A stretch of DNA of 64,000 nt from Pseudomonadota bacterium (GTDB lineage: Bacteria; Desulfobacterota; Desulfobulbia; Desulfobulbales; Desulfurivibrionaceae), in NCBI GenBank assembly GCA_018830485.1, contig JAHJRQ010000012.1:1-64000 (forward strand), written 5' to 3'. Position numbers and translations under genes: made by a program. The stretch's first letter is position 1. The number at the start of each line of letters is the position of its first letter. Of the stretch, positions 29,504 through 64,000 are shown in pieces. The notes under the pieces were generated by a model, which ran no database searches, was not told where the DNA came from, and saw only the letters and a program-made list of their open reading frames with translations.

Positions 29504-29850
29504 TGGGGGGCAGGCTTTGCTAATGCCGCTTCCGGATTTTCGGGGCAAATCTTTATCCGTGGCATAGGCTTGCCGAGGAATGATTCCCTTATCGCACAAG
29601 GCGTTTCCCCATGGCCGGATTATATACCTAGCTATAAACCCGATAACCCCGTATAGTTAACTCATTGACCTATCATTCGAAATCATATCTCTAGTCCATT
29701 TCGAACCCTCCAGCCTTTCGGTCATCTCCATCCACCACTTTGTAAATTCCCCTGGAACAGTCCGCATAGTTCCTTTCTGATCTTCCCTGGTCTGTGAAAT
29801 TTTTCACCATGGCCGGAGGTTCGGACTTCGTAGTGATTAAAGGACAAATA

Positions 29851-32800
29851 GTGGGCGTCGGCATTCTCATTGGTTATTTTGCAAAACATGATGTGGCTCG
29901 AAAAGCTTTTCGGGAACTGGCGAGACAGGATTTTCGCCGTGCTGTTTTGCTCCGCAAGGGCGCAAACGGCGAGGTGCATGTCACAAATCCCTTCCTCTGG
30001 CGTCGTGCTTACGGCGTCTCCCTGGCGGTTGTTCTCTGCTGCATGTTGGTCGGATTAGCGTCCCTGGTTCTGAACCGGTTGGGCTTGCTTGCGGACTGGC
30101 AGCTTTTTAATCCGGCCCTTTTTTTGGCGGCTTCCGCCATCGGCACCCTTGCCGCGCTGCTCTGGCTGCGCCGCTCCAGGTACGGGGTTGAAGCCAAGGT
30201 CATTCGTGATCATTCACGCTGGCTTGTTTCCGGGGAATCCGTCCTGATTGTTCAGGCGCCCATCGAATCGTTACAGCGTCCGGTGTCGATGCTGCGGGAA
30301 AGCGGCGATATTCCCCCGACCCTGTTCGTCATGCATCCCAAGCGAGAACGTCGGGCAGAGACGCGGGTTTCCGCGGTAAAGCTTTCCCCGGCCCAGGTTC
30401 TGGAGCATGCGCAACGCCATGCCCGGGAACAGCAGGTGGATCTGAAGCCGCAACACAGTACCGAGCTGCTCAAGCGCCTCAAGCAATCCCGGCAATGGGT
30501 GCGTCAGGTCTGCGCGGATCTTGGGGCGGCGAGCCGCCTGGAACAGAAAGCCACCCCGGCTGCCGATTGGATTCTCGATAACGAGTACATCCTGGAAAGC
30601 AACGCCCGCGATGTCCTGCTGAACCTGCCCCGGAGCTTTTATCGGCAGCTGCCTGCCCTGGGCTCTGATCCTTACCATGGGTTGCCCTGTATCTACGGGC
30701 TGGCCAAGGATCTTGTTTCCCACAACGAACTGCACCTTGACCGGGAGAATATCCTGGCTTTTATCGAGGCCTACCAATCCGTACGCACGCTAACCATCGG
30801 CGAACTCTGGGCAATGCCCCAGATGCTGCGGGTCGCCTTGATCGAAAGCATCCAGAGCCTGGCTGTCACCGCCCTGGCGGATTTGCGCGAACGTCAGTTG
30901 GCGGATTTTTGGGCAAACAGGCTGATCGCCGCCAATCGTCGTGATGCCAACCAACTGTTCGTGATCCTGGCGGAACTTGCCAAAGCCGAGCCTGCTCCAA
31001 GCCCTTATTTCGCCACCCAGTTGGTCGGCTTGCTCTATGACGAGGCCGCGGCATTGTCGGCGGTCCAGAGCTGGCTTGAGCGGACGCTCAAAAAACCACT
31101 GCACGAGCTTAACCTGCGTGAGCAGAACCGGCAGACCAGGGAACAGTTGTCTTGCGGCAACGCCTTCACCAGCCTGCGTCACCTTGCCCTCTTGGATTGG
31201 CGGGAGATGTTCGAGAAACTCAGCCGGGTGGAACACATTCTGCGTCGCGACCCGTCCGGGGTGTATGCGAAAATGGATTTCGCCACCCGTGATCGCTGTC
31301 GGCGGGCCATTGAGGAACTTGCTCGCGCTGCCGACCAGCCAGAAAAACAGGTCGCTGAGCGCGTCATCAACCTGGCGATCCAGGCCCAACATGAATCAAG
31401 TAAGGATGAACGGCGCAGCCATGTCTCCACTTGGTTGCTAGGGGAGGGACGGATTGAACTGGCCCGTCGGCTCACCTGCCGGGAAGCGCTGCGGTACCGG
31501 GTTTTGGAGTGGATTTATCGCCACCATGCCGTCCTGTATTTCCTTGGCATCAGCACCTTTTTCGCCATGTTTATTTTTCTGATCGTTGTCTTCGCCCTGA
31601 TTCCCCAATTCGGCAAGCCCGGGCTGAATCCCGTGTTTCTCTTTGGCCTAGTGCTGCTTCTGGTGATTCCGGTGAGTCAGCTGGCCATCGAAGTGGTCAA
31701 TTATCTGCTCACCCGGCTTCTCCCGCCTCGCCCCTTGCCCAAGATGGATTTTGAGGAGTCGGGCATTCCCGATGCATTCCGCACCCTGGTGGTGGTGCCG
31801 ATGATGCTGGCGAACGCGGAAACGATCCGTGTCGAGGTGGAAAAGCTGGAGATCCGCTACCTGGCCAACAAGGACGCCAATCTGCTCTTCAGCCTGTTCA
31901 CGGACTACCTCGATGCCGACACGCGTTCCTCGGAAGAGGACAGTATCCTGCTCCAGATCGTGAGCGGATGTCTGGACGAGCTCAATCAACGCCATGGCGG
32001 CGAGCGCTTCTTTCTCTTCCATCGCGAACGCACCTGGTGTGAATCCGAGCAGAAATTCATCGGTTGGGAGCGCAAGCGGGGAAAACTGGAGGAGCTGAAC
32101 CGGTTGATCGACAACACCCGGCCCGAGAACGCACCACCCCTGGTTTACGTGGGCGATCCGGACCAGTTGGCGGATATCCGCTTTATCATTACCCTGGACA
32201 GCGACACCCAGTTGCCCCACGCATCGGCCCGCAGGATGGTGGAAACCCTGGCCCATCCCCTCAATCAGCCCCGCTTTGATGCGGCCGGAAAGATTGCCTC
32301 CGGCTATACCATTATCCAGCCGCGGGTGAGCCCGACCCTGCCCAGCACCAGCGCCTCGACCTTCAGCCGGCTCTTTGCCGATGCGGTGGGCATCGACCCC
32401 TATACCCAGGCTATCTCCGATGTCTATCAGGATTTGAGCGGGGAAGGATCCTACCACGGCAAGGGGATTTACGATGTGCGCGCCTTCAGCCGCGTGCTGT
32501 CCGGCCGCTTCCCTGAAGAGTGGGTCTTGAGCCATGACCTGATTGAAGGAGCGCATGTTCGGGTGGGGCTGGCCAGCGATATTGAGCTGTACGATGAATT
32601 CCCCCAGGGGTATCAGAGCTACAGCAGCCGAGCCCACCGTTGGATTCGCGGTGATTGGCAGATCGCGGCCTGGGCGTTCTCCCATGTTCCCCAGGCGTCA
32701 GGCGATCGCGGGATCAATCCGCTCTCCATGCTCAACCGCTGGAAGATTCTCGACAACATGCGCCGCAGCCTATTGCCTGCAACCAGCCTGGGGCTGCTCT

Positions 32801-35800
32801 TGGCTTCCTGGTTCATTTCTTCGAAAACCGGCACCGTTGCCGCCATTGTTGTTGGCATGCAACTGCTTTTTCACCCTTTGGCGCAGCCCTTTACCATGGC
32901 CACCACCTACAAGGGCTTGAAATACTTCTCCCCGTCGAAACTGTTGCACGACCTGCTGCGGGGGTGTGCCGATGGTGCGCTCCTGCCGCACCAGGCGGCA
33001 ATGACCCTGGATGCCATCGCCCGGGTCTGTTACCGCCGCATGATCTCCCGCCGCTACTTGTTGGCATGGAGTGCCCAGTCAACCCATTGGCGCGGTTCCC
33101 GTGGCCAATCGCTTTTCGTGGCAGGCTTGGGCTTGGGCAGCCTCTTCAGTCTCATCGCGGGCTGTGCGATCTGGCGCTTTAGACCGGAGAGTTTGCTCCA
33201 GGCCGCACCCTGGCTTCTGTTGTGGTTTTTCTCTCCGCTCCTCGGCTGGCTCCTGAACCTCCGTTCTGATGCGCAACAGCAGGCACAACCGTTGCCGGAA
33301 GCCGACTCCCGGTTTCTCCGGCAGGTCGCCCGGCGGACCTGGCGCTATTTTTCAGCCTTTGTCAGCGCCGAAACCTCCTGGTTGCCGCCCGATAACTATC
33401 AGGTCGCCCATCAAAACCGGTTGGCCATGCGAACCAGTCCGACCAATATCGGTCTCTGGATGGCCAGCGTTTTGGGCGCCCATGATTCCGGTTATCTGAC
33501 CGTGAATCAGGTGATCGAAAAGCTGACCAGCACCATGGAGAGCCTCAAAAGTTTGGAGCTTCACCACGGCCACCTCCTCAATTGGTATGATATCCAAACC
33601 TTGTCCCCCCTTGAACCCCGCTATGTCTCCACGGTGGACAGCGGCAATCTCCTGGGCGCACTCTGGGCGCTGGAGCAGGGAATTGGCGAGTTGGTGCACG
33701 AGCCTCTTTTGGATGGCAAGGCGTTTGCCGGCATGGCGGATACCGGAGAAATTCTCAAGCAGAATCCACCGTCAGAAGAAATGGATGCCGATTTTCGTCA
33801 CTCCCTGGAGCAGATGTTGGCTGCGTTGTCCGCGTCACCCTCCGGGATTGGCGAGCTTCTTGGTCTGCAACACCGGCTGGAGGTTCTTTGCCGTGCGGTG
33901 CTTGCCAAGGCAGGAGGTGCAGCGTGGGGTTCGGAACTTGAAAATCAGGTCGGTTCCTGGGGTCGGAACAGAGACCGCTATCTCGTCTGGCTTGATATCC
34001 TTGCGGAAAAAAGCGAGGAAGAGCTGGCCTCCTTGGGGTCCGAGGCTGTGCAAGCAATCCGTCACGATCTGTTGCAGGCGCCATCCCTCGTCGCCCTGGC
34101 CCACGGGAAAATTGATTCGATTCCGCTTCTGCATGCCATCCGCAAGGCTGCACACCCTGATAGCGCATCCCTTGTCCCGTGGCTTGACCGGGTTATCGAG
34201 GCCTTTGCCACGGCGCAATGGCTGGCCGGAGAAACCCTTGGCATGGCGGAGCAACTGATCGTCGATATCCGCGCCCTCTCGGCCGGGATGAACATGCGTT
34301 TTCTCTATGATCCCAAGCGCAAGCTCTTTGCCATCGGATACAACGTTTCCACCGATCGGCTGGACGTCTCCAGTTACGATCTCCTGGCCAGTGAGGCGCG
34401 GCTCGGCAGTTTCGTCGCCATTGCCCGGGGCGATGTGCCCCTGGAACACTGGTTCTCCCTGAGTCGCCCGTACGGGGCAATTGGTCGGCAGCGGGTGCTG
34501 CTCAGTTGGACCGGGACCATGTTCGAATATCTGATGCCGCTTTTGTTCCAGTACTCCTACGGCAACTCGCTCCTTGACAAGGCGGCCCGGGAAGCGGTGC
34601 GGGTCCAGATCGCTTACGGCCGCATGCGAGGGGTTCCCTGGGGTATTTCCGAGTCCGCGTTTGCCGATCTTGATCTGAGTAAAACCTATCAGTACAAGGC
34701 CTTTGGCGTGCCGATGCTCGGGTTGAAACGCGGTCTGGAGGAACAGTTGGTCGTTGCTCCCTATGCCACCCTGTTGGCCCTGATCGTGACCCCCCGCGAG
34801 ACGGTGCGGAACCTGAAACACCTGGCCACCCTCGGGTTACTCGGCAATTACGGGTATTACGAGGCCATGGATTTCAGCCGGCAACCGCAGCGGGAGGGCA
34901 GGCGCGGGGTGATCATCGAGGCGTATATGGCCCATCATCAGGGGATGGCGTTTCTCTCTTTGACCAACTTTCTCCATGGCAATCCGTTCCCGCGCCGGTT
35001 TCATGGCGATCCCCGGGTGCGTGCTTTTGAACCCCTGCTTCAGGAGCGCATTCCGGTTCTGCCGTCCTTGCATCTGATTTCAACCCGGCAGAGTGTGCCG
35101 GAACTGCTGGGCGACGATATGATCGCCCCTGCGGGAACCACCTTCACCACCCCCCATACCGCCACGCCCAAGAGTCTGTTGCTCAGCAACGGGCGCTATG
35201 GCTTGATGGTCACCAACAGCGGGGGCGGGTACAGTCAGTGGGGAGGGCAGGAACTCACCCGCTGGCGGTCGGATCAGACCTGCGATGGACTGGGAACCTT
35301 CTGCTACCTCCATGAGGCTGATCCGGATCGTCTCTGGTCCACCACCTATCACCCGGTGGGCGGCAAGTTCGAAGGGTATTCCGTGGATTTCACCCTCGAC
35401 CGGGCCGTATTCCGCCGGGTCGAGAACGGTGTTCATGCGGAAACAGAGGTTGTGGTTTCGCCGGAAGACGATGTGGAGGTGCGCCGCATCACCCTGGTCA
35501 ATCGCTCCGGTCGCGTTCGGAATCTCAATCTCACCAGCTACGTTGAACTTTCCATGGCCCCCCATAACGCGGATCGCCAGCATCCCGCCTTTAACAAGCT
35601 CTTCATCCAGACCGAAGCGCTCCCCGGGCAGCAAGCGCTCCTTGCCTACCGGCGACCGCGCAGTGAAAACGAATCGCCTCTGTATGCGGCCCATTGCCTT
35701 ACCCTGCAGAGTAACGGGGATGAGAGCATGGTTGAAACGGATTGGCAGTTTGAAACCGACCGGGGACGCTTCATCGGCCGCGGACGGACCCTGGCCAATC

Positions 35801-38800
35801 CCATGGGCGCTGTTCAGGCTCTCGGCAACAGCCAGGGCTTTGTCCTTGATCCGATCTTCAGCCTGCGGCGGAGTGTCACCCTGGAGCCCGGCCAGCGCGT
35901 CCAACTTTCCCTGGTGCTCGCCGCCGGGAAAAGCCGCGAACATGTCTTGTTGCTCATGGAGAAGTACACCACCCCCCATGCCGGCGAACGGGCCGTGGAT
36001 TTTGCCTGGCACTCGGCCCAGCAGCAGTTGCAGGTGCTCCATATCCAGCCTGACGAAGCGCGACGATTCCAGCAACTGGCGAGTCATCTGCTCTTTCCCA
36101 ACCCGCTTTTGCGCGCCGGCGGCGAACGTCTGGCCGAGAATCGCAAGGGTCAGGCCGGTTTGTGGCCATACGGCATCTCGGGCGATCTGCCCATTGCCCT
36201 GGTCACCATTGGCGAAGCCCGGGATATCAGCCTGGTTCGCCAGATGCTCCAGGCCCACACCTATTGGCGGATGCACGGTCTTTCCACCGATCTGGTAATC
36301 CTCAACGAGGAGGCGGGCAGCTATGAACGGCCGCTCCAGGAGCGTCTGGAGCAGCTGATCCAGGTCCATGCCCTCTCGGCCGCCACGGATCGGGCAGGGA
36401 CGATTTTTCTGAAGAGCGCGGCGCAGATTCCGGAGGAAGACCTGAAGCTCCTCAAGGCGGCGGCCAGTGTCATGCTGGTGGCGGCGCGGGGCACGCTGCC
36501 CCAGCAATTGGGGGTTCCGGAGGAGGTTCCCGAAGGGTTTGCCGCCCTGGCCCGCAAACCTGCGGTTCGGGAGCCTTCGGCCCCGCTCCCCTTCATGGAA
36601 CTGCACTATTTCAACAGCCTGGGTGGCTTTACCCCGGACGGGCGTGAATACGCGATCTATCTCGGCCCCGGCACCAACACCCCGGCTCCCTGGGTGAACG
36701 TCATCGCCAACCCGACCTTCGGCGCCATGGTCAGCGAAACCGGCGCCGGCTTCACCTGGTACGGCAACAGCCAGCGCAATCGTCTGACCGGCTGGTCCAA
36801 CGATCCCGTGCTGGATCCGGCCTCGGAGGTTCTGTACATTCGCGACGAGGAGAGCGGCGTCTACTGGTCGCCGACCGCCGCGCCGATTCGGGAGAAATCC
36901 GCCTATCGAACCCGGCACGGGGCAGGCTATACAGTCTTTGAGCATAACAGTAACGGGATCGAGCAGGAGCTGACCGTCTTCGTTCCCGTGGATGCGCTTG
37001 GCGGTGCGCCCGTCAAACTGCAACGTCTGCGGCTCACCAACGGTTCCGCCAGAAAGCGGAAACTCTCGCTGACCTACTATGTGGAATTAACCCTGGGCGA
37101 GAACCGGGAAACCTCGCAGATGCATGTGATGACCAACTGGGATGACGAAGTCCGGGGCATGCTGGCGTACAATCGCTTTCATCCCGAATATCCGGAGCGG
37201 GTCGCTTTTGTAACCATGACCCCGCAGGCCGACTCGTACGGCGGCGACCGCACCGCCTTCATCGGCCGCAATCGCTCGCTGGCCAACCCGGCAGCCATGG
37301 AGCTGATCCACCTCTCGCAACGGACCGGCGCCGGCCTGGATCCGTGCGCGGTACTCCGGGTTACCCTTGAATTGTCTCCGGGCGAGCAGCGTGACCTCAC
37401 CTGCATGCTGGGGCAGGCCGACTCCGCAGCCCAGGCCCGGCAACTGGCGCTCCGTTTTCAGGAGGATCTGGCGCTGGAGGAGGCGCTGGCCCAGACCAAG
37501 GATTGGTGGGATACCCTGTTGGGCGCCATCGAGGTGCACACCCCGGAACTGGCCGCCGATCTGCTGATCAACCGTTGGCTGCAGTACCAGTCCCTAGGCT
37601 GCCGGCTTTGGGCGCGTTCCGCTTTTTACCAGTCCGGCGGCGCCTTCGGTTTTCGCGATCAGTTGCAGGATGTCATGGCCTTTCTCTACGCCAGGCCGGA
37701 AATTGCCCGCAACCAGATACTGCTGGCCGCAAGCCGACAATTCAAGGAGGGTGATGTCCAGCATTGGTGGCATGAACCTGCGGGGGCCGGAATCCGCTCG
37801 CGGATCTCCGACGACTTGCTCTGGCTTCCCTATGTGGTGGCGCAGTATGTTCGGACCACCGGCGAGGTGGACCTTCTCAAGGAGGAGGTAACCTTTCTCA
37901 ACGGGCCTATCCTGGCAGACGATCAGTACGAGGTGTTCTCCACCCCGGAGGTCACCTTTGAACGCGCCACCATTTTTGAACACTGCCGCCGCGCGGTCAG
38001 CCACGGCCTGACCATTGGGCCCCACGGCCTCCCCCTGATGGGAACAGGGGATTGGAACGACGGTATGAACCAGGTCGGCGCGGGTGGCAAGGGGGAGAGC
38101 GTCTGGCTCGCCTGGTTTCTCTGCGATCTGTTGCAGGGGATGGCCGAAATGTCCGACCTGCTGCAACAACCGGAGTTGAGCCAGTCCTATCAAGAGGAGA
38201 GGCATGCCCTGATCCAGCGGGTGGAGCAGGCGGGCTGGGACGGGGAATGGTATCTGCGGGGAACCTTCGACGATGGCTCTCCGCTTGGCTCCGCGAAAAA
38301 CACCGAGGCGAGGATCGATTCCCTGCCCCAATCGTGGGCCTGGCTTTCCGGCGCTGCCGATCCCGTGCGGGCCGATCAGGGGCTGGAGTCGGCCTGGCAG
38401 CATCTTGTCCGTCAGGATGAAGGGCTGGTGCTGCTCTTTACGCCTCCCTTCGACACATCCGAACCCTCGCCCGGCTACATCAAGGGGTATCCGCCCGGAG
38501 TGCGGGAGAACGGCGGTCAGTATACGCACGCCGCCCTCTGGCTGGCCATGGCCATGGCTCGTAAGGGGGATGGGGAGCGGGCCGTGCAGCTGCTGCGCAT
38601 GCTCAATCCCATCGAGCACGCCCGCGATGCCGAGTCGGTCTGGCATTACGGGGTTGAACCATACGTGGTCGCGGCCGATGTCTACCGGTTGCCCGGAAGG
38701 ATAGGGCAGGGGGGCTGGTCCTGGTATACCGGGGCGGCATCGTGGATGTACCGGGCTTGGGTGGAAGAGGTTTTAGGCCTGCGGATCCGGGGTGTGCAGA

Positions 38801-39039
38801 TGCAGGTGAATCCGGTCATCCCCGCGACCTGGGAGGGCTTCAGTCTCAGCTATCGGCACGGGGAAACGCTTTACTCCATCGAGGTGGAGAATCCCCACGG
38901 TTGTCTGCGCGGCGTTGCCTGGGTGGAGATGGATGGCCAGCGCGTGCTCGGTGGGGTGATCCCCTTGGAACGGGATTTAGTGAAACATCGGGTTGTGGTC
39001 AGGATGGGAACTCCGGAAGAGTCGAGTGAGGTGGTGTAA
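29851..39039 (+). CDS. ndvB: Cyclic beta-1,2-glucan synthase (NdvB/ChvB family)
   Basis: About 3062 residues. The inner-membrane enzyme starts, extends, cyclises and trims beta-1,2-glucan. A short N-terminal stretch (GYFAKHDVARKAFREL) precedes membrane segments near residues 55-105. More hydrophobic segments lie near 557-625, 975-1017 and 1090-1135. The GT84 transferase between them has LDSDTQLPH near 781 and the RAHRWIRGDW motif near 927. The C-terminal half has two carbohydrate-binding regions and a GH94 phosphorylase-like domain with GTGDWNDGMNQVG near 2731. It is longer than the 2832-residue Agrobacterium ChvB. I prefer GTG 29851 because AAAGGA lies 6 bases upstream; ATG 29809 and GTG 29794 are in frame without a site. 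Terminators flank the gene, so it is monocistronic. The product is probably a periplasmic glucan for osmotic adaptation; role inferred. Confidence 0.92.
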   Translation: MGVGILIGYFAKHDVARKAFRELARQDFRRAVLLRKGANGEVHVTNPFLWRRAYGVSLAVVLCCMLVGLASLVLNRLGLLADWQLFNPALFLAASAIGTLAALLWLRRSRYGVEAKVIRDHSRWLVSGESVLIVQAPIESLQRPVSMLRESGDIPPTLFVMHPKRERRAETRVSAVKLSPAQVLEHAQRHAREQQVDLKPQHSTELLKRLKQSRQWVRQVCADLGAASRLEQKATPAADWILDNEYILESNARDVLLNLPRSFYRQLPALGSDPYHGLPCIYGLAKDLVSHNELHLDRENILAFIEAYQSVRTLTIGELWAMPQMLRVALIESIQSLAVTALADLRERQLADFWANRLIAANRRDANQLFVILAELAKAEPAPSPYFATQLVGLLYDEAAALSAVQSWLERTLKKPLHELNLREQNRQTREQLSCGNAFTSLRHLALLDWREMFEKLSRVEHILRRDPSGVYAKMDFATRDRCRRAIEELARAADQPEKQVAERVINLAIQAQHESSKDERRSHVSTWLLGEGRIELARRLTCREALRYRVLEWIYRHHAVLYFLGISTFFAMFIFLIVVFALIPQFGKPGLNPVFLFGLVLLLVIPVSQLAIEVVNYLLTRLLPPRPLPKMDFEESGIPDAFRTLVVVPMMLANAETIRVEVEKLEIRYLANKDANLLFSLFTDYLDADTRSSEEDSILLQIVSGCLDELNQRHGGERFFLFHRERTWCESEQKFIGWERKRGKLEELNRLIDNTRPENAPPLVYVGDPDQLADIRFIITLDSDTQLPHASARRMVETLAHPLNQPRFDAAGKIASGYTIIQPRVSPTLPSTSASTFSRLFADAVGIDPYTQAISDVYQDLSGEGSYHGKGIYDVRAFSRVLSGRFPEEWVLSHDLIEGAHVRVGLASDIELYDEFPQGYQSYSSRAHRWIRGDWQIAAWAFSHVPQASGDRGINPLSMLNRWKILDNMRRSLLPATSLGLLLASWFISSKTGTVAAIVVGMQLLFHPLAQPFTMATTYKGLKYFSPSKLLHDLLRGCADGALLPHQAAMTLDAIARVCYRRMISRRYLLAWSAQSTHWRGSRGQSLFVAGLGLGSLFSLIAGCAIWRFRPESLLQAAPWLLLWFFSPLLGWLLNLRSDAQQQAQPLPEADSRFLRQVARRTWRYFSAFVSAETSWLPPDNYQVAHQNRLAMRTSPTNIGLWMASVLGAHDSGYLTVNQVIEKLTSTMESLKSLELHHGHLLNWYDIQTLSPLEPRYVSTVDSGNLLGALWALEQGIGELVHEPLLDGKAFAGMADTGEILKQNPPSEEMDADFRHSLEQMLAALSASPSGIGELLGLQHRLEVLCRAVLAKAGGAAWGSELENQVGSWGRNRDRYLVWLDILAEKSEEELASLGSEAVQAIRHDLLQAPSLVALAHGKIDSIPLLHAIRKAAHPDSASLVPWLDRVIEAFATAQWLAGETLGMAEQLIVDIRALSAGMNMRFLYDPKRKLFAIGYNVSTDRLDVSSYDLLASEARLGSFVAIARGDVPLEHWFSLSRPYGAIGRQRVLLSWTGTMFEYLMPLLFQYSYGNSLLDKAAREAVRVQIAYGRMRGVPWGISESAFADLDLSKTYQYKAFGVPMLGLKRGLEEQLVVAPYATLLALIVTPRETVRNLKHLATLGLLGNYGYYEAMDFSRQPQREGRRGVIIEAYMAHHQGMAFLSLTNFLHGNPFPRRFHGDPRVRAFEPLLQERIPVLPSLHLISTRQSVPELLGDDMIAPAGTTFTTPHTATPKSLLLSNGRYGLMVTNSGGGYSQWGGQELTRWRSDQTCDGLGTFCYLHEADPDRLWSTTYHPVGGKFEGYSVDFTLDRAVFRRVENGVHAETEVVVSPEDDVEVRRITLVNRSGRVRNLNLTSYVELSMAPHNADRQHPAFNKLFIQTEALPGQQALLAYRRPRSENESPLYAAHCLTLQSNGDESMVETDWQFETDRGRFIGRGRTLANPMGAVQALGNSQGFVLDPIFSLRRSVTLEPGQRVQLSLVLAAGKSREHVLLLMEKYTTPHAGERAVDFAWHSAQQQLQVLHIQPDEARRFQQLASHLLFPNPLLRAGGERLAENRKGQAGLWPYGISGDLPIALVTIGEARDISLVRQMLQAHTYWRMHGLSTDLVILNEEAGSYERPLQERLEQLIQVHALSAATDRAGTIFLKSAAQIPEEDLKLLKAAASVMLVAARGTLPQQLGVPEEVPEGFAALARKPAVREPSAPLPFMELHYFNSLGGFTPDGREYAIYLGPGTNTPAPWVNVIANPTFGAMVSETGAGFTWYGNSQRNRLTGWSNDPVLDPASEVLYIRDEESGVYWSPTAAPIREKSAYRTRHGAGYTVFEHNSNGIEQELTVFVPVDALGGAPVKLQRLRLTNGSARKRKLSLTYYVELTLGENRETSQMHVMTNWDDEVRGMLAYNRFHPEYPERVAFVTMTPQADSYGGDRTAFIGRNRSLANPAAMELIHLSQRTGAGLDPCAVLRVTLELSPGEQRDLTCMLGQADSAAQARQLALRFQEDLALEEALAQTKDWWDTLLGAIEVHTPELAADLLINRWLQYQSLGCRLWARSAFYQSGGAFGFRDQLQDVMAFLYARPEIARNQILLAASRQFKEGDVQHWWHEPAGAGIRSRISDDLLWLPYVVAQYVRTTGEVDLLKEEVTFLNGPILADDQYEVFSTPEVTFERATIFEHCRRAVSHGLTIGPHGLPLMGTGDWNDGMNQVGAGGKGESVWLAWFLCDLLQGMAEMSDLLQQPELSQSYQEERHALIQRVEQAGWDGEWYLRGTFDDGSPLGSAKNTEARIDSLPQSWAWLSGAADPVRADQGLESAWQHLVRQDEGLVLLFTPPFDTSEPSPGYIKGYPPGVRENGGQYTHAALWLAMAMARKGDGERAVQLLRMLNPIEHARDAESVWHYGVEPYVVAADVYRLPGRIGQGGWSWYTGAASWMYRAWVEEVLGLRIRGVQMQVNPVIPATWEGFSLSYRHGETLYSIEVENPHGCLRGVAWVEMDGQRVLGGVIPLERDLVKHRVVVRMGTPEESSEVV

Positions 39040-56586: not shown

Positions 56587-57573
56587 ATGGGAAAACAAAT
56601 TCGCATCTACCTCGCAGACAATTCCGCTTCAGGTGTTCGTCATGCTGAAATCACAAACTGGACGGGACAAGCATTTGCTTGCCCTCGAACGAGATTTAAT
56701 GAGCTTAAAGATTGGCCTGAGATAAAGCGACCAGGCGTTTATTTTCTCTTTGGAATCAACGAAACAACTGGGGATAATATTGTCTATATTGGCGAATCAG
56801 AGAACGTGCTGGATCGGCTCAACTCTCATATTTCAGGTAAAGACTTTTGGTCTGAGCTTATTGCCTTCACAAGCAAAGACGAAAACCTGACAAAGAGCCA
56901 CGCAAAGTATCTTGAATCCAGACTCGTATCTATCGCAACACATGCACGTCGCTATGAAGTGAAAAATTCTGCTGCTCCTCAACCCCCTACACTTTCAAGG
57001 GGAGAAAGGGATGCGATGGAAGAATTTTTATTGTTGGCCAAGTTGCTTTTAGGAGTTCTTGGGCATCGAGTGTTAGACCCTTATGCTCCAGTGCTTCATC
57101 GACCAGCAAAAGAGGAGATGCAGGGCGAATATACTCTTCCTCAATCATCCGCTATTTCGCTAGAAGTCTCTCCACTTACAAACACAACTATTCTGAAGCT
57201 CCGAGATAAAAAATATTCTGCTGATGCCATAATTACCGATGAAGGCATGGTGGTCTTGGCCGGCTCTCAAGCCACAAAAAAACCTCTACCCAGCCTAGCC
57301 CGGGGCTATCTATCTCTTCGTGAAAATCTTATTGCCAAAGGCGTCCTTTCCGAAAACAATGACATATTGGTGTTCACTCAGGACCAGCTATTCTCTAGTC
57401 CATCACAGGCGGCATCCATAATTTTGGGATCCTCAAGGAATGGACCAAAGGAATGGGGCATGCAACTCCTCGAACCGAAATGCAACTCTGACGAATTACT
57501 GCGCGAATTAGAGTCATCCAATGGTGATAGACTAACACGCGATTACAAACAGATGGAGACCTCCCATGATTGA
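56587..57573 (+). CDS. GIY-YIG nuclease-domain protein with C-terminal DUF4357-like domain
   Basis: 328 residues. Residues about 45-120 are a GIY-YIG domain (PGVYFLFGINE, NIVYIGESENVLDRLNSHI). The C-terminal part (DKKYSADAIITDEGMVVLAG, then RGYLSLRENLIAKGVLSEN) matches the DUF4357 domain found in such proteins. Function is not established; phage defence or mobile-element origin has been suggested for relatives. Codon use and base composition are clearly AT-richer than in miaB and the PHP gene on either side, so it is probably a recent acquisition. It overlaps the next gene by 8 bases. Confidence 0.85.
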   Translation: MGKQIRIYLADNSASGVRHAEITNWTGQAFACPRTRFNELKDWPEIKRPGVYFLFGINETTGDNIVYIGESENVLDRLNSHISGKDFWSELIAFTSKDENLTKSHAKYLESRLVSIATHARRYEVKNSAAPQPPTLSRGERDAMEEFLLLAKLLLGVLGHRVLDPYAPVLHRPAKEEMQGEYTLPQSSAISLEVSPLTNTTILKLRDKKYSADAIITDEGMVVLAGSQATKKPLPSLARGYLSLRENLIAKGVLSENNDILVFTQDQLFSSPSQAASIILGSSRNGPKEWGMQLLEPKCNSDELLRELESSNGDRLTRDYKQMETSHD

Positions 57574-58216
57574 TCTACATACCCACTCCCTGTTCAGCGA
57601 CGGTGAACTCGTCCCCGCCGAGCATCTGCGCCGGGTGGAAATCCTCGGTTATTCCGCCATTGCCATCACCGATCACGCCGATTCCTCGAATATTGATTTC
57701 ATCATCCCCCGCATCGTGCAGGCGGCGGCTGATCTGAACAAATACTCCAAGACCCAGCTCCTGCCCGGCATCGAACTGACCCATGTGCCGCTTGAGCAGA
57801 TCGGCGAACTCACCCGCAGGGCGCGGCAGCTTGGGGCCAAGATCGTGGTTGGCCACGGGGAAACCCCGGTGGAGCCGGTGCGGCCCGGGACCAATCGGGC
57901 CACGCTTGAGGCAGGGGTCGATATCCTGGCCCACCCCGGATTTATCACCCTGGAAGAGGCCGAACTGGCTGCGAAAAAGGGCATCCTCCTTGAGCTGTCC
58001 GGACGCAGGGGGCATTCGCTCACCAACGGGCATGTGGCCAAGATGGCCCTGGCCGCTGGGGCTGGTATGGCGGTGAACGCCGACGCCCATGGCCCCGGCG
58101 ACTTTCTCACCGCGAAAATGGCGGAGATGGTGGCGCTTGGCGCCGGACTTTCCTCCGAGGAATATGCCAAAATTCGCAACGCCATGGCGGCGCTGGTTGC
58201 CAGAGTAGCCGGCTGA
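57566..58216 (+). CDS. PHP-domain phosphoesterase
   Basis: 216 residues. The metal-binding PHP motifs are present: DLHTHSLFSDGE, ITDHADSS, LLPGIELTHVP, VVGHGETPVEP and VNADAHGPGDFL. The family includes histidinol-phosphate phosphatases and RNA/DNA phosphoesterases; the exact substrate is not readable. ATG 57566 lies inside the end of the GIY-YIG gene. The gene precedes the peptidase/ligase trio by 29 bases and may belong to that operon. Confidence 0.88.
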   Translation: MIDLHTHSLFSDGELVPAEHLRRVEILGYSAIAITDHADSSNIDFIIPRIVQAAADLNKYSKTQLLPGIELTHVPLEQIGELTRRARQLGAKIVVGHGETPVEPVRPGTNRATLEAGVDILAHPGFITLEEAELAAKKGILLELSGRRGHSLTNGHVAKMALAAGAGMAVNADAHGPGDFLTAKMAEMVALGAGLSSEEYAKIRNAMAALVARVAG

Positions 58217-58245: not shown

Positions 58246-58989
58246 ATGGAAGCCTTCCTTGATGTGACCATCCTGCCGCAGCCCGACGACACCACCTGCG
58301 GCCCCACCTGTCTCCATGCCGTGTACCAATACTACGGCGACAACATCCCGCTGGCTCGGGTGATCGACGAGGTGAAAAGCCTGGAAACCGGCGGCACCCT
58401 GGATGTCTTCCTGGCCTGCCATGCCCTGCGCCGGGGCTACAAGGCGCGGATCTACACCTACAACCTCCAGGTTTTCGACCCCACCTGGTTTCTCCATGAT
58501 GCGGACTATATCGAGGAGCGGCTCCTGGCCCAGATGGAGGCCAAGGACGATGCAAAGCTCCACCTTGCCACCCGGGGCTATCTCAACTTTCTCAATCTCG
58601 GCGGGGAGCTGCGCTTTGCCGATCTCACCCCTGCCCTGCTCCGCAAATACCTGAAACGCTCCATCCCCGTGCTCACGGGCCTGAGTTCCACCTATCTCTA
58701 CCGGAGCATGCGGGAATATGGTGATCTCTGCGAGGATGACGATGTGCGCGGCCACCCTTCCGGCCATTTTGTTTTGCTCTGCGGCTACAACCGGCCCGAT
58801 CGGCTGGTGGCCATTGCCGACCCGCACATGGGCAACCCCCTGGCCGTCGGCCAGCAGTATGAGGTCTCCATAGACCGGGTCATCTGCTCCATCCTGCTGG
58901 GCATCGTCACCTACGACGCCAACCTGCTCATCATCGAGCCCTCCAGGAAAAAAGGTAATAGCCGGGCGAACCACACGGTGCAGGCATGA
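58246..58989 (+). CDS. C39-like papain-fold cysteine peptidase
   Basis: 247 residues. The catalytic Cys lies in TTCGPTCLHAVYQYYGDNI, the His in HPSGHFVLLCGYN, and an acidic residue in AIADP, the order of C39-like peptidases. There is no transmembrane segment or ABC module, so it is cytoplasmic rather than a bacteriocin exporter. The stop overlaps the RimK-like start (ATGA), tying it to the two ligases that follow. The likely role is cleavage or transfer on a small peptide made by them; this is inference. The start at ATG 58246 has AGGAGGA upstream. Confidence 0.82.
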   Translation: MEAFLDVTILPQPDDTTCGPTCLHAVYQYYGDNIPLARVIDEVKSLETGGTLDVFLACHALRRGYKARIYTYNLQVFDPTWFLHDADYIEERLLAQMEAKDDAKLHLATRGYLNFLNLGGELRFADLTPALLRKYLKRSIPVLTGLSSTYLYRSMREYGDLCEDDDVRGHPSGHFVLLCGYNRPDRLVAIADPHMGNPLAVGQQYEVSIDRVICSILLGIVTYDANLLIIEPSRKKGNSRANHTVQA

Positions 58990-60467
58990 AGGTTCTCATT
59001 GTCGTCAACGACCCCAAGGACTGGCCCCTGGCCATCAAGGAGGTGCAGATCGTCCCTGCCCGCGCCTATCTCACAGACGCCGCCTATGCGGAAATGACCT
59101 CGGCCAGGGTGTTCAACCTGTGCAAATCCTACCGCTACCAGAGCACCGGCTATTATGTTTCGCTGCTGGCGGCGGCCAGGGGGCACAAGCCCCTGCCGGA
59201 CGTGGCCACCATCCAGGATTTCAAGACCCAGGCCATAATCCGCATCGCCTCCGACGACCTGGACCAGATCATCCAGCAGAGCCTGGGCCAGATAAAATCG
59301 CCGGAATTCGTGGTGAGCATCTATTTCGGCCATAACGTGGCCAAGCGGCACGAAAAGCTCGCCCAGCAGTTGTTCAAGATCTTCCAGGCCCCTTTCCTGC
59401 GCGCCAGCTTCAGCCACAATGACAAAGAGGGCAAATGGCAATTGGCCACCATCACCCCCATGGCGGCCAGCGATATTCCGCCAGACCACCGCGATTTTGC
59501 CGTGGAGATGGCCCGCGAGTACTTCAAGGGACGGCATCGCATCTTTCACCGGCGGCGCACCGCCCGCTACGATCTGGCCATTCTCCACGACCCGGCCGAG
59601 GCGGAAGCGCCTTCCAACACCAAGGCCATGCAGCGTATGGTCAAGGCGGCGGAGAGTGTTGGTTTTGCCACGGAGTTCATCCAAAAGGATGATTACGGCA
59701 GGCTCGCCGAATTCGATGCCCTGTTCATCCGGGAAACTACCAGTGTTTTGCACCACACCTACCGGTTCGCCCGCAGGGGTGTGGCCGAGGGGCTGGTGGT
59801 GATCGACGACCCCGAGTCGATCCTGCGCTGCACCAACAAGGTGTTTCTGGCCGAGATCCTCACCAGGCACCGGATTCCCATCCCCAAGACCCGCATCGTC
59901 CACCAGGGCAACTGGCAGCAATTCGGTGCGGAGCTGGGGTTTCCCTGCGTGCTTAAAAAACCGGACAGCTCTTTTTCCCAAGGCGTGGTCAAGGTGGAAA
60001 ACGAGGCGGAGCTGGCCCGCGAGCTTCCGGCCCTGCTGCAAAAATCAGAGTTGGTCATCGCCCAGGAATTCATGCCCACCACCTTTGACTGGCGGGTCGG
60101 GGTTTTTGACGGGCAGCCGCTCTTTGCCTGCAAGTACTTCATGGCCCGCAAGCATTGGCAGATCATCAAGCGCGATTCCGCCGGGCGCAAGATTACGGAC
60201 GGCGAGGCCGAGACCCTGCCGGTGGAGCATTGCCCGCCGGGGCTGATCAAGCTGGCGCTCAAGGCCTCGGCCCTCATCGGCGACGGGCTCTACGGGGTGG
60301 ATATCAAGCAGGTGGGCAGCCGCTTCTATCTCATCGAGATCAACGACAACCCCAATATCGACGCGGGCGTGGAAGACAGGGTGCTGAAAGACGAGCTCTA
60401 CCTGCGTCTGATGCGGGTCTTTGCCCGCAGGGTGGACGAGCGCAAGGGCGGAGGGCTGTGGGCGTGA
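58986..60467 (+). CDS. RimK-like ATP-grasp ligase with N-terminal RLAN domain
   Basis: 493 residues. Residues 1 to about 190 form the RimK-like ATP-grasp N-terminal (RLAN) domain (VVNDPKDWPLAIKEVQIVPA). The ATP-grasp core follows: FPCVLKKPDSSFSQGVVKV, VIAQEFMPTTFDWRVGVFDG and FYLIEINDNPNID, the last giving the Mg ligands. ATP-grasp enzymes join a carboxylate to an amine through an acyl phosphate, often adding Glu to peptides. It overlaps the peptidase gene (ATGA) and the GCS2-like gene (GTGA), so the three are translated together. Confidence 0.88.
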   Translation: MKVLIVVNDPKDWPLAIKEVQIVPARAYLTDAAYAEMTSARVFNLCKSYRYQSTGYYVSLLAAARGHKPLPDVATIQDFKTQAIIRIASDDLDQIIQQSLGQIKSPEFVVSIYFGHNVAKRHEKLAQQLFKIFQAPFLRASFSHNDKEGKWQLATITPMAASDIPPDHRDFAVEMAREYFKGRHRIFHRRRTARYDLAILHDPAEAEAPSNTKAMQRMVKAAESVGFATEFIQKDDYGRLAEFDALFIRETTSVLHHTYRFARRGVAEGLVVIDDPESILRCTNKVFLAEILTRHRIPIPKTRIVHQGNWQQFGAELGFPCVLKKPDSSFSQGVVKVENEAELARELPALLQKSELVIAQEFMPTTFDWRVGVFDGQPLFACKYFMARKHWQIIKRDSAGRKITDGEAETLPVEHCPPGLIKLALKASALIGDGLYGVDIKQVGSRFYLIEINDNPNIDAGVEDRVLKDELYLRLMRVFARRVDERKGGGLWA

Positions 60468-61702
60468 GTGGGGACGGATTGTTCACAAAATTCGGGGTCG
60501 AGCTGGAGTACATGCTGGTCCGCGAGGACAGCCTGGATGTGGCGCCCATTGCCGACCGCATTCTGGAACGGATTGCAGGCGGGATCACCAATGAGGTGGA
60601 ACGCGGGATCATGGGTTGGTCCAACGAACTGGCCCTGCATGTGATCGAGATCAAGAACAGCGAGCCAGTCCCTGCCCTGCCCATGCTGGCGGAAAAATTT
60701 CAGCACGAGGTTGCGGCGCTGGCGCAGGTGGCGGCCGAACAGGGGGCGATTCTTCTGCCCACGGCCATGCATCCCTGGATGAACCCGCACACCGAAACCC
60801 TGCTCTGGCCCCACGGCAGCAAGGAAATCTACAACACCTACAACCGGATCTTCAACTGCCAGGGCCACGGCTGGTCCAACGTGCAGTCCACCCATCTCAA
60901 TCTGGGCTTTGCAACGGATGCGGGGTTTGGCCGGCTGCACGCGGCGATTCGGGTGCTGCTTCCCATCCTTCCGGCCATTGCAGCCAGCTCGCCTGCGGTG
61001 GACGGCGTCCTCACCGGCTGGCTGGATACCCGGCTCCATTATTACCGGAATAATCAGCAACGGATTCCCTCCATCACCGGTCAGGTCATTCCGGAGCCGG
61101 TTTTCAGCGAGGCTGAGTATGAACGGGAGATTTACCAGCGTCTGCGCCGCGACATCGCGCCCCATGATCCGGACGGGGTGCTGGAAGCGGAATGGCTCAA
61201 CTCCCGGGGGGCCATTGCCCGGTTCGACCGCAACGCCATCGAGATCCGGGTGCTGGACATCCAGGAGTGCCCGCTGGCCGATGTGTCCCTGGCCGTGCTG
61301 ATCTGCGCGGTGCTGGAAGGTTTGACTGCGGGGCGTTGGTCCGCGTCTGTCGAGCTGAAGGCGGCGGAAACCGTGGGGCTGGCGGAGATCTTCAGCGACA
61401 CGGTCCGCGAGGGTGAACAGGCTGTGATCGATAACTGCCGTTACCTTGCTCTGTTTGACAGAGGGGGAAGCGCAGCCATGACCGCGGGAGAGCTTTGGCA
61501 GGAGTTGGCTACGGATTGCGCCCCGGTGCTGGCCGAAGCCGGGTACGGTATCCAGCAGAGTGTGGAGACCATGCTTGCCCATGGCCCGTTGTCCCGGAGG
61601 ATTATCCGGGCGCTTGGTGCCAATCCGAATCGGGAGCGGTTGCGGGAGGTGTACCGGGAGCTGGGCTTTTGCCTTGCCCAGGGGCGCCTTTTTTTGCAAT
61701 AG
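60464..61702 (+). CDS. GCS2-like carboxylate-amine ligase
   Basis: 412 residues related to the second glutamate-cysteine ligase family. Active-site strands are seen in GVELEYMLVRED, HVIEIKNSEP, LLWPHGSKEIYNTYNRIF and the Asn/His-rich STHLNLGF; NAIEIRVLDIQECPLADVSL is a conserved C-terminal block. It should activate a glutamate-like carboxylate with ATP and join it to an amine. The start at GTG 60464 overlaps the RimK-like stop (GTGA) and has GGAGGG 8 bases upstream. With its two partners it forms a candidate small-peptide pathway. Confidence 0.86.
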   Translation: MSGDGLFTKFGVELEYMLVREDSLDVAPIADRILERIAGGITNEVERGIMGWSNELALHVIEIKNSEPVPALPMLAEKFQHEVAALAQVAAEQGAILLPTAMHPWMNPHTETLLWPHGSKEIYNTYNRIFNCQGHGWSNVQSTHLNLGFATDAGFGRLHAAIRVLLPILPAIAASSPAVDGVLTGWLDTRLHYYRNNQQRIPSITGQVIPEPVFSEAEYEREIYQRLRRDIAPHDPDGVLEAEWLNSRGAIARFDRNAIEIRVLDIQECPLADVSLAVLICAVLEGLTAGRWSASVELKAAETVGLAEIFSDTVREGEQAVIDNCRYLALFDRGGSAAMTAGELWQELATDCAPVLAEAGYGIQQSVETMLAHGPLSRRIIRALGANPNRERLREVYRELGFCLAQGRLFLQ

Positions 61703-61711
61703 GCTCAGATC

Positions 61712-62686
61712 TCAACGGGCCGGACCGGGCTGCGGCGGTCCGAGTTGTTGCAGGTAGTGAGTTGTAATGACGTCGGATAGCTCGGGCACTCGGTTGAGCT
61801 TATGCTGTTCCTTAAGAAAGGTCGCGGTCTGGCCGAGGCTGGCAGTCGTGACACCGTCAAGCTGTAGACGGTAACTATGGCGCTGCATGGCCTTGCCGAC
61901 CATCTCCGGAGACAGCCCGGTTTCCTTGCTGAGCAGCAGTGCGGTTTCTTCAGGGTAGCGGTGGACAAACTGTTCAGCCCGAGCCAAGGCGCGCATAAAA
62001 CGGTGCAGTTCCTCATTCCGCTTGCTCATCAGGCTGGTTTTTACCAGTATCAGCAGCGGGTAGTTGTTTCCTAGACCACCCAAATCGGCCAGTTCACGGC
62101 CTCTCTTTTGCTCAGCCAGGGAAGGGGTCGGTTCGCTGGCCACAAAGGCATCCAGCGAACGTGCGGCCAGGGCATCGGGCATGAAGGCCGGATCAAGGTC
62201 AATGATCTGCAGGTCAAGGTAACTAATGCCCTTGGCTGCCAGCAGGGCCAGAAAACCGCCGTGGGTGGAGGTGCCTTTCTTGACACCGATTCTTTTCCCC
62301 TTCAAATCGGTCAGGCTGCGTATGGGGCTGGTTGGGGGCACGATGATCCGGTGCCGCTTTTCGCCGGATCCGTGGCTGGCGATGATGCGCAAGGCTGGTT
62401 CCCGCGATACGGCCAAGAGGGCGGCGGTGTCGCCCATGGTGGCGACATCAACGGCTCCGGTAAAGATCGCCTCGGCACAGGCTGCTCCATTGTTGAACAG
62501 TAGTCCCTTGACCCGAAGGCCTTCCTCGGCAAAAAAGTCCTTATTGAGCGCGATGATCGAAACAGCGTCGCCGATCCGGTTCTGATAGGCAAAGCGGAGC
62601 GGCTCTGCCGCAACCGCCGCAGAAGCCATTGGCAAAAGAACAGGGAAAAAAAAGAACATTGTCACTGCCAGGCGAAACAGATTCAT
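61712..62686 (-). CDS. ABC-transporter substrate-binding protein (SsuA/TauA/NMT1-like)
   Basis: 324 residues. A signal peptide (NLFRLAVTMFFFFPVLLPMA, cleavage after the ASAAVAAE region) precedes an NMT1-like periplasmic binding fold: LRFAYQNRIGD, AEEGLRVKGLLFN, GAVDVATMGDTAALL, KGKRIGVKKGTSTHG. The ligand could be a sulfonate, nitrate or pyrimidine-like compound and cannot be assigned. It overlaps the ATPase stop (ATGA) at its 5' end and is the last gene of the operon. The start is ATG 62686. Confidence 0.88.
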   Translation of the reverse strand: MNLFRLAVTMFFFFPVLLPMASAAVAAEPLRFAYQNRIGDAVSIIALNKDFFAEEGLRVKGLLFNNGAACAEAIFTGAVDVATMGDTAALLAVSREPALRIIASHGSGEKRHRIIVPPTSPIRSLTDLKGKRIGVKKGTSTHGGFLALLAAKGISYLDLQIIDLDPAFMPDALAARSLDAFVASEPTPSLAEQKRGRELADLGGLGNNYPLLILVKTSLMSKRNEELHRFMRALARAEQFVHRYPEETALLLSKETGLSPEMVGKAMQRHSYRLQLDGVTTASLGQTATFLKEQHKLNRVPELSDVITTHYLQQLGPPQPGPAR

Positions 62687-63468
62687 AGCCCATGCACTCC
62701 TCGGCTTGATGATGCAATGCAGCACGGCAGCGTGTCGAGCTCGGCGCGCAGCAACGCTGTGGTCTCTGTAAACTCCCGTGATGTGCGGAGGCGAGGCCGC
62801 TTGGAAGGGAGGTGTATATCTGCGTGGATCGTATCGGGGGCCGGCCCCATGACAATGACCCGTTCCGCCAGAAATACAGCTTCTTCCACGTTGTGGGTAA
62901 TATAGACAACCGTGACCGGACGAATTTCGCAGATCCTCAGCAGCTCATCCTGCAGCCGTTCCCTGCTGTTTGCGTCGAGGGCGCTGAACGGTTCGTCCAT
63001 CAGCATGACCTTGGGTTGCAGGGCCAGAATACGGGCAATGGCAACACGCTGTCGCATACCGCCGGACAGGCTGACAGGCCAGGCCGCGGTGTGGGGCAGC
63101 ATTCCCACCAGGTCGAGGTATTCTTGGGCAACGGCCGTACATTGCTCATGAGACAGGCCTTGCTGACAGAGGCCAAATCGGACATTGTCGAGTACCGTCA
63201 TCCACGGAAACAGGGTGGCATCCTGAAAGATCACCCCCCGGTCCGGCCCCGGCTTGTCTACCGGAACATCCTGGAACAGCACCCGGCCTGAGGTGGGGGC
63301 TATAAACCCGGCTATCAGGTTCAACAGGGTGGTCTTGCCGCAGCCGCTTGGCCCCAGCAGACAGGTAAACCGGTTTTCCGCAAAGGCAAGGGAGATATCC
63401 TGCAGGATGAACAGCCCGGTGGCTCTGCCGGGGCTATACTGTTTGCTGACCTGATCGAGCCGGATCAT
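62683..63468 (-). CDS. ABC-transporter ATPase (SsuB/TauB-like)
   Basis: 261 residues. Walker A GPSGCGKTTLLN, Q-loop GVIFQDATLFPWMTV, signature LSGGMRQRVAIARIL, Walker B VMLMDEPFSALD and the switch His in VVYITHNVEEA are all intact. The closest pattern is the nitrate/sulfonate/taurine class. The stop overlaps the binding-protein start and its own start overlaps the permease stop, so all three are coupled. Confidence 0.94.
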   Translation of the reverse strand: MIRLDQVSKQYSPGRATGLFILQDISLAFAENRFTCLLGPSGCGKTTLLNLIAGFIAPTSGRVLFQDVPVDKPGPDRGVIFQDATLFPWMTVLDNVRFGLCQQGLSHEQCTAVAQEYLDLVGMLPHTAAWPVSLSGGMRQRVAIARILALQPKVMLMDEPFSALDANSRERLQDELLRICEIRPVTVVYITHNVEEAVFLAERVIVMGPAPDTIHADIHLPSKRPRLRTSREFTETTALLRAELDTLPCCIASSSRGVHGL

Positions 63469-64000
63469 TTCAGGGGTCCGCCTTCGAGGTGGTAGTGTTT
63501 CAGGGTTGTGCGTTCAAGCGGACGGAACAGGCCGTATTCGATCAGGATGCCTATCAGGGCGATAATCGTAAGACAGGCAAAGGCTCCGGTATAATCCAGG
63601 TTCCAGCGGGACTCGACAATTGAATAGCCAAGGCCGGTACCGGTACCGACCACCATTTCAGCCGCCAGCAGCACCCGCCAGCTGTTTCCCAGGCCAAGCC
63701 GCAGACCGCTTATGGTTGCGGGCAGGGCGCCGGGCAACAATACCTGGAAAAAGAGGGATCTTTTCCCGGCCCCCAGCATCCTGGCTGCACGAAGATAGGT
63801 GCCGTCCAGATGTTTGACTCCGGCCAGCACGGTTATGGCGACGGGAGGAAAGGCAGCCATGGCGATTATGAAGATGGTCGCTGGTTCTCCGAGACCGAAA
63901 ATCAGAAGAGCAATAGGAATCCAGGCCAATCCGGGAATCAACTGCAGCAGATGGACAATCTGCCCCGTGGCCAGTTCAAGGCGGCGGCAGACCCCCGCCG
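63465..64000 (-). CDS. ABC-transporter permease (SsuC/TauC-like), N-terminus beyond window
   Basis: The frame is open to the window end, with at least 177 residues visible. Membrane segments and the EAA-type loop are seen (GTYLRAARMLGAGKRSLFF, VLLPGALPATISGLRLGLG), and the region upstream of a TTG at 63941 continues the family pattern (HLLQLIPGLAWIPIALL), so the true start lies outside. It overlaps the ATPase start by 4 bases. Confidence 0.9.
   Translation of the reverse strand, partial: AGVCRRLELATGQIVHLLQLIPGLAWIPIALLIFGLGEPATIFIIAMAAFPPVAITVLAGVKHLDGTYLRAARMLGAGKRSLFFQVLLPGALPATISGLRLGLGNSWRVLLAAEMVVGTGTGLGYSIVESRWNLDYTGAFACLTIIALIGILIEYGLFRPLERTTLKHYHLEGGPLK

Follow-up and report, generated by a model that had tools for sequence, protein, structure and literature searches.

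A conserved trio of C39-like, RLAN-RimK and GCS2-like genes in a Desulfurivibrionaceae genome and its possible part in making a capped peptide

Ligases that combine an RLAN domain with a RimK-type ATP-grasp domain have predicted partners. The Pfam entry PF14401 gives papain-like peptidases and GCS2 proteins as neighbours of RLAN, and Iyer et al. (2009) reportedly predicted an RLAN neighbourhood that includes both. According to the Pfam text, a GNAT fused to a papain-like peptidase is the usual, but not obligatory, neighbour of RLAN-RimK. We know of no product for either the GNAT form or the GCS2 form of the system. Here, we analysed three adjoining genes for a C39-like papain-fold enzyme, an RLAN-RimK ligase and a GCS2-like ligase, at positions 58246–61702 of a 64,000-nucleotide window (positions 1 to 64,000 of contig JAHJRQ010000012.1, from a bacterium of the Desulfurivibrionaceae). 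As in the predicted neighbourhoods, the same ligase family stands beside a papain-like peptidase and GCS2. In contrast, the papain-like enzyme of the window is free and not GNAT-fused, and GCS2, accompanied elsewhere by an N-formylglutamate amidohydrolase-like gene of the FGase family, replaces GNAT. We suggest, with a probability of about 45%, that the trio forms a cytoplasmic three-enzyme pathway in which free building blocks are assembled into a small N-capped peptide.

The original prediction regarded the trio as its best candidate for an undescribed biosynthetic pathway. A pathway is the best reading that we infer from families and context, but the description as new holds only in part, as papain-like peptidases and GCS2 had already been noted as companions of RLAN. 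No experimental study of the trio was recognized in the literature searched, which reached few subscription papers and did not include Iyer et al. (2009). The clean alternation of GNAT and GCS2 and the link to FGase are additions of this study, although Iyer et al. may already have reported them.

Four further systems invite comparison. The GNAT-DUF3335 and RLAN-RimK pair, as in Azospirillum (L137), has a homologous ligase and a homologous papain-like domain, but an acyltransferase instead of GCS2, and no GCS2 or FGase gene within the regions examined. RimK-RimB, which acts in the glutamylation of ribosomal protein S6, shares the ATP-grasp fold, the glutamate-contact residues and the pairing of a ligase with a peptidase; unlike it, the trio has an RLAN domain, a GCS2 partner and a cysteine instead of an aspartic peptidase. 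LysX and ArgX, which work with LysW, have the solved structures most similar to the ATP-grasp part, whereas LysW (TIGR01206) was not found in the genome of the window, which is about 98% complete. The set of GshA, GshB and phytochelatin synthase uses the same kinds of step (a GCS2 ligase, an ATP-grasp ligase and a papain-fold enzyme of related fold), but the families differ beyond GCS2, the second-site residues of phytochelatin synthase were not found, and the trio coexists with GshB in some hosts.

Conservation and active sites of the trio

Out of 58 related genomes, PF14401 was detected in 27, that of the window among them; 14 well-known genomes examined as controls lacked it. In all 27 RLAN loci of these relatives, C39, RLAN-RimK and GCS2 kept their order on one strand, the GCS2 copies of L032 and L041 being cut at the contig end. 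A scan of a one-genome-per-species collection confirmed at least 591 ligase relatives, the best 80 of which were used. After removal of 5 duplicates, 102 non-redundant loci were left, and the full trio was present in 90 of them, a share that is biased upwards because the 80 scanned loci are those most similar to the query. This recurrence in both sets indicates that the order of the trio is not due to chance. The 63 named trio loci belong to 14 named phyla, with 2 unassigned; single phylum labels may be wrong because many of these loci are metagenome bins.

The original prediction had placed the locus correctly and had described overlaps of four bases at each junction, and both points were borne out on re-reading of the sequence (ATGA between C39 and RLAN-RimK, GTGA between RLAN-RimK and GCS2, all genes on the + strand). 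In the 90 trio loci, where the counts rest on automatic start choice, the gap was below 30 bp in 82 for C39–RLAN and in 80 for RLAN–GCS2; the junctions of the window were taken from the sequence itself. Three of these loci (L060, L065 and L089) carry a damaged or partial C39 frame. Among the 12 loci without the full trio, C39 is missing from L064 (with GCS2 in two frames), L103 and L123, GCS2 from L069 and L082 (the latter at a contig end), and both from L081, L096, L105, L107, L112, L124 and L133. Pseudomonas aeruginosa (L135) likewise has an RLAN-RimK gene without GCS2 and C39. Pairwise protein distances correlated over 64 loci (Spearman 0.54, 0.39 and 0.52, against maxima of 0.21, 0.21 and 0.18 in 500 permutations), as expected of genes inherited together. 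Near-identical rows of the window's own genus were excluded from the wide alignments and trees.

The three family assignments of the original prediction were confirmed by Pfam. The C39-like protein matched PF13529 (E 4e-10) and PF03412 (24.7 bits, cut-off 22), and no NCBIfam model at E ≤ 0.001. Its papain catalytic residues Q12, C18, H174 and D192 were present in all 75 rows of alignment A4, from which L060, L118 and other rows are excluded. In the AlphaFold model (mean predicted local distance difference test score, pLDDT, 92.3), two folds tied by VIA-align: the C39 peptidase 6mpz_B gave Z 16.6 (root-mean-square deviation 2.0 over 134 residues), and Alr0975 (2bu3_A), a primitive phytochelatin synthase, gave Z 16.4 (2.4 over 162 residues). 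Foldseek placed C39 domains first (E 1.5e-6, compared with 6.7e-4 for phytochelatin synthase), and the profile search returned C39 proteins only. PF05023, the phytochelatin synthase family, gave no match at E ≤ 0.001. The second-site residues of phytochelatin synthase presumably lie at +5 and +6 after the catalytic Asp. Judged by this spacing, without a structure-based residue alignment, N197 and P198 stand in the C39-like protein where Lys206 and Tyr207 of the Nostoc enzyme are expected. We therefore rejected identity with phytochelatin synthase despite the VIA-align tie.

Lys206/Tyr207 are given as the second-site residues of the Nostoc enzyme, and cleavage of glutathione to gamma-Glu-Cys by Alr0975 is described (PMC3855540), which suggests that a papain-related fold can act on gamma-glutamyl peptides. 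BtrH is described as a papain-fold acyltransferase (PMC10318531), so that both hydrolysis and transfer are possible for the C39-like enzyme. The designation as a free C39-like peptidase thus stands for the family, but not in the sense of an exporter-linked leader peptidase: in the Pfam scan no ABC (ATP-binding cassette) exporter was fused to this free protein of 247 aa.

The RLAN-RimK protein matched PF14401 (E 6e-49) followed by PF08443 (E 2e-9). Its NCBIfam matches were all below cut-off (LysX, 66.3 of 275.6 bits; RimK family, 63.3 of 143.4 bits), and PF02955, the GshB type, gave no match at E ≤ 0.001. A fold search with the predicted structure (mean pLDDT 86.8) aligned the part from residue 195 on with ArgX (Z 26.5), LysX (26.2), RimK (25.4) and glutathione synthetase (21.1), while almost no row covered the RLAN domain. 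Residues K285, K324, R370, D439, E451 and N453 were found in 89 of 89 aligned ligase rows. In P. aeruginosa RimK, R64, R189 and N262 are named as contacts of bound poly-glutamate, and S7, R8, S14 and S68 as further contacts (PMC10092738). Our comparison covered the first three: by profile alignment, R64, R189 and N262 correspond to R249, R370 and N453 of the present protein, and all three are invariant.

The GCS2-like protein matched PF04107 (E 1e-28), and all named GCS2 subfamily models fell below cut-off. The nearest of these, YbdK-type TIGR02050, reached 53.6 of 176.4 bits, which is so far below cut-off that a cysteine substrate is not implied. The earlier label of glutamate-cysteine-ligase relative therefore holds for the GCS2 family, but not for cysteine as the substrate. 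Solved structures gave no more than weak matches, to glutamate-cysteine ligases of plants, and no substrate was assigned from them. E13, E15, E55, H59, E62, N146, R190, E260 and R262 were present in all 73 aligned rows, which likewise conserve the G-x-E-x-E / E-x-R active site of GCS2. The original prediction had named loss of conservation and of active-site residues as the points on which it might fail; the trio proved to be conserved, and the residues are in place in all three alignments. The trio gene is the sole PF04107 match of its genome.

Alternative partners and neighbours of the ligase

When 150 Pseudomonadota genomes were drawn evenly, with Thiobacillus thioparus as the centre genome among them, 37 RLAN genes were obtained from 34 genomes, three of which have two such genes each; the draw includes near-identical rows (e.g. 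L201–L204). Thirty-six of the 37 RLAN-RimK genes adjoin GNAT, as GNAT-DUF3335 fusions in 26 cases and as stand-alone GNAT in 10, and the remaining one, that of T. thioparus, belongs to a C39-RLAN-GCS2-FGase set. GNAT and RLAN lie on one strand in 24 of the 36. At E ≤ 1e-5, the 36 GNAT-type regions, which measure between 6.7 and 10.5 kb, yielded nothing related to FGase or to the GCS2 and C39 profiles of the trio, and none of the 90 full trios has a relative of these GNATs nearby. GNAT and GCS2 thus appear as alternative partners of one ligase, and the simplest reading is that they do the same kind of job, the transfer of an acyl group onto an amine. The only GNAT match among the 102 loci is a stand-alone gene of a Nevskiaceae member (L107, 9455–9907), directly after an RLAN-RimK gene without C39 or GCS2.

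DUF3335 is often fused to GNAT, according to PMC10318531. The DUF3335 part of the Azospirillum protein (PF11814, E 6e-84) proved to be homologous to the C39-like protein of the window (hhalign probability 80%, E 1.4e-5), with the catalytic Q, C, H and D aligned. On a FastTree tree of 131 RLAN-RimK proteins, built without L139, L136 and L206, the exchange of GCS2 and GNAT required one change, the difference between fused and free GNAT seven, and that between GCS2-type and solitary genes eight. The alternation thus apparently follows one deep split, and the papain part of the GNAT form is gained or lost repeatedly.

In 45 loci, GCS2 is followed in the same orientation by a gene of the FGase family; 44 of these, where the two genes directly adjoin, are among the 84 loci with more than 700 bp of DNA at that position. 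Two more loci, L108 and L115, have an FGase gene in another place. The four copies scanned matched PF05013 with E values from 7e-21 to 5e-28, and the annotation of a Legionella record lists, consecutively, a RimK family protein, a glutamate-cysteine ligase family protein and an N-formylglutamate amidohydrolase. PF05013 had no match in the genome of the window, and no FGase gene was found beside the trio in the loci of its genus, indicating that this part is optional. One FGase-like protein of 420 aa (L132, 10705–11967) carries an extra C-terminal stretch that is weakly HD-domain-like (E 3e-4, below cut-off).

The flanks of the trio vary between families, with a local synteny shared by four Thiobacillus-like loci. 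Outside the window's genus and apart from FGase, the commonest neighbours are as follows: a PAS/sensor-like family occurs within 5 kb in 12 loci, on either side and strand, and ABC ATPase and protein-kinase-like genes in 5 loci each, and GATase genes and carriers of the major facilitator superfamily (MFS) in 4 each, the PAS and kinase labels being assigned by eye. Members of the GATase_4 family (class II glutamine amidotransferase) lie near the trio on the opposite strand in L080, L086, L088 and L092, as judged from a Pfam scan of L086 alone. The gamma-glutamyl hydrolase EgtC belongs to the class II glutamine amidotransferase kind.

The original prediction saw neither a precursor peptide nor an exporter, and this picture was upheld. 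Open reading frames (ORFs) of 18–120 aa were compared across the 1.5 kb on either side of 90 trio loci, and none made a convincing conserved precursor peptide or carrier. Small-ORF families shared by at least 4 loci were rejected: judged by position and strand and not by computed overlap, they look like shadow frames of adjoining genes, FGase and PHP among them. Transporters are rare among the recurrent neighbours within 5 kb (MFS in 4 of 102 loci and ABC ATPase in 5 of 102, the window's convergent ABC set counted).

A possible capped-peptide pathway and its rivals

The gene order, its conservation, the intact active sites, the alternation of GNAT and GCS2 and, for two of the three proteins, a predicted fold are established. 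On the basis of the enzyme families, the GCS2-like ligase would spend ATP on linking glutamate, through its gamma-carboxyl, to an amine, and gamma-Glu-X would result. The RLAN-RimK ligase would then activate the free carboxyl of gamma-Glu-X and, in the manner of LysX, ArgX and RimK, attach another amino acid, which is most likely acidic. The C39-like enzyme may form an acyl-enzyme with the product and hydrolyse or transfer it, thereby setting its length or recycling it, and the FGase-like hydrolase, where present, would release or recycle glutamate. GNAT would replace GCS2 for capping in the sister branch, and the cap there would therefore be acetyl or another acyl group and not gamma-glutamyl. 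A wider proposal, which we regard as possible but doubtful, is that RLAN-RimK is the core of an unrecognised, phylum-spanning class of capped-peptide pathways with two exchangeable forms, an acyl-capping GNAT form and a gamma-glutamyl-capping GCS2 form that has C39-like and FGase-like hydrolases of its own, and that both make a shared, widespread cytoplasmic metabolite which has been overlooked.

In favour of the capped-peptide pathway count the wide conservation of the trio, the correlated protein distances, the invariant catalytic residues, the kinship of the ATP-grasp part with ligases that add acidic amino acids, the glutamate-contact residues, the occurrence of FGase with GCS2 but not with GNAT, the GNAT/GCS2 alternation, and the lack of both a convincing precursor ORF and, in this genome, LysW. 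Several observations weigh against it. Substrates, product and reaction order are drawn from families and context, and families alone leave the substrates unfixed. FGase is absent not only from the genome of the window but also from 40 of the 84 loci with room for it. Residues of the R370 and N453 type are general to carboxylate-activating ATP-grasps. The solitary RLAN-RimK genes indicate that the ligase can do without GCS2 and C39, which would fit a protein target too. Twelve of the 36 GNAT-type regions have GNAT and RLAN in divergent orientation, and the alternation, which the tree shows as a single change, counts as evidence only once. The share of loci with the full trio is, as noted, biased upwards.

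Reversible protein tagging and transient amine protection are serious rivals. In the former, RLAN-RimK, with or without GCS2, would add acidic residues to a protein terminus and the C39-like enzyme would remove them, like RimK and RimB on S6. The RimK-like fold, the conserved glutamate-contact residues and the solitary ligase genes agree with this, and the adjoining ligase and peptidase recall the RimK-RimB pairing outlined in PMC12239564. However, no candidate target gene recurs at a fixed place in the neighbourhood, although a target need not adjoin, and the substitution of GNAT for GCS2 argues for capping and not for chain addition. The GCS2 relatives with known activity, moreover, join gamma-Glu to small amines, and on balance we consider tagging unlikely. 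In transient protection, modelled on the synthesis of butirosin or on LysW-linked lysine synthesis, a gamma-glutamyl (GCS2) or acetyl (GNAT) mask would be set on an amine, the ATP-grasp ligase would act on the masked intermediate, and C39 or FGase would unmask it. This scheme, which accounts for the GNAT/GCS2 alternation and for the occurrence of the FGase-like hydrolase only with GCS2, also fits an ATP-grasp part nearest to LysX and ArgX and the papain-fold acyltransferase BtrH (PMC10318531). Further biosynthetic genes, however, lie near the trio in at most about 4 of 102 loci, and the genome of the window has neither LysW nor FGase. Protection seems a less likely account than tagging.

A glutathione- or phytochelatin-like thiol pathway, in which GCS2 would make gamma-Glu-Cys, RLAN-RimK would act like glutathione synthetase and the C39-like enzyme like phytochelatin synthase, appears improbable. 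It draws on the VIA-align tie with 2bu3_A and on the genome of the window, which has no other GCS2 and no strong GshB, its sole GSH-S_ATP (PF02955) match being weak at 27 bits; in the 58 relatives, PF02955 matched in 26, with 73 bits at best. All eight named trio carriers tested, however, matched PF02955 above cut-off, four of them at 132–249 bits (T. thioparus, 241 bits; N. communis, 249 bits). The trio thus does more than stand in for glutathione synthesis, and glutathione replacement was rejected as a general explanation. The lack of a PF05023 match, the preference of Foldseek and the profile search for C39, and the N197/P198 positions (by the presumed spacing) also speak against a thiol product. 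We hold it very improbable that the trio belongs to a system for ribosomally synthesized and post-translationally modified peptides, with the C39 enzyme cutting a double-glycine leader: the C39 family match agrees with this, but there is no convincing conserved small ORF nearby, no fused exporter and no widely recurrent one.

Other features of the window and meaning of the trio

Table 1. Positions of the trio, its neighbours and other features in the window
Feature	Position	Strand	Details
C39-like papain-fold cysteine amidase/acyltransferase, free	58246..58989	+	247 aa; ATG 58246, AGGAGG ahead of start, TGA ending 58989; PF13529 match; Q12, C18, H174, D192 intact
RLAN (~25-173) + RimK-type ATP-grasp ligase (~195-486)	58986..60467	+	493 aa; ATG 58986, TGA ending 60467; PF14401 + PF08443
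GCS2-family carboxylate-amine ligase	60464..61702	+	412 aa; GTG start 60464, GGAGGG ahead of start, TAG ending 61702; PF04107; G11, E13, E15, H59, E62, N146, R190, E260, R262 invariant
PHP-domain phosphatase-like gene directly upstream of trio	57566..58216	+	NF004981 E 1e-86
DUF4357 protein	56587-57573		weak GIY-YIG stretch; between miaB and the PHP gene
Convergent ABC transporter set	61712-63941	-	NMT1/THI5-like binding protein; after trio
Formate-dehydrogenase-like protein	21412-25530		in-frame TGA 23884-23886 inside molybdopterin domain (DHCARL-TGA-HAP)
Single ORF	29794-39039		3081 aa; GH94 supersandwich + catalytic domains, glucoamylase-like domain, weak glycosyltransferase stretch

The PHP gene possibly shares a transcript with the trio. 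It precedes the trio in 13 of the 27 relatives' loci, only in the window's genus and in two other genera of the family, and is not among the neighbours that recur near the trio elsewhere in the 102 loci. Its linkage to MiaB was rejected as functional evidence and ascribed to local synteny. Among the 13 relatives' loci with PHP, the insertion of the DUF4357 gene is confined to this genome, and the miaB-PHP and PHP-C39 gaps range from overlap to more than 1 kb, a pattern that suggests gain and loss of genes in this interval. The ATPase family of the convergent ABC set occurs near 5 of the 102 loci only. No tRNA or Rfam element was found in the window. In the formate-dehydrogenase-like gene the frame continues after the internal TGA, which has the classic look of a selenocysteine codon, and the single large ORF resembles cyclic beta-1,2-glucan synthases.

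With a compact set of three genes and intact active sites, a long-standing prediction of comparative genomics becomes directly testable in laboratory hosts. If the proposal is true, many bacterial species would share a peptide metabolite or tag, as judged from at least 591 ligase relatives, in part of which the trio was checked. The exchange of GNAT for GCS2 predicts the same core compound in both branches, capped by an acyl group in the GNAT branch and by gamma-glutamyl in the GCS2 branch.

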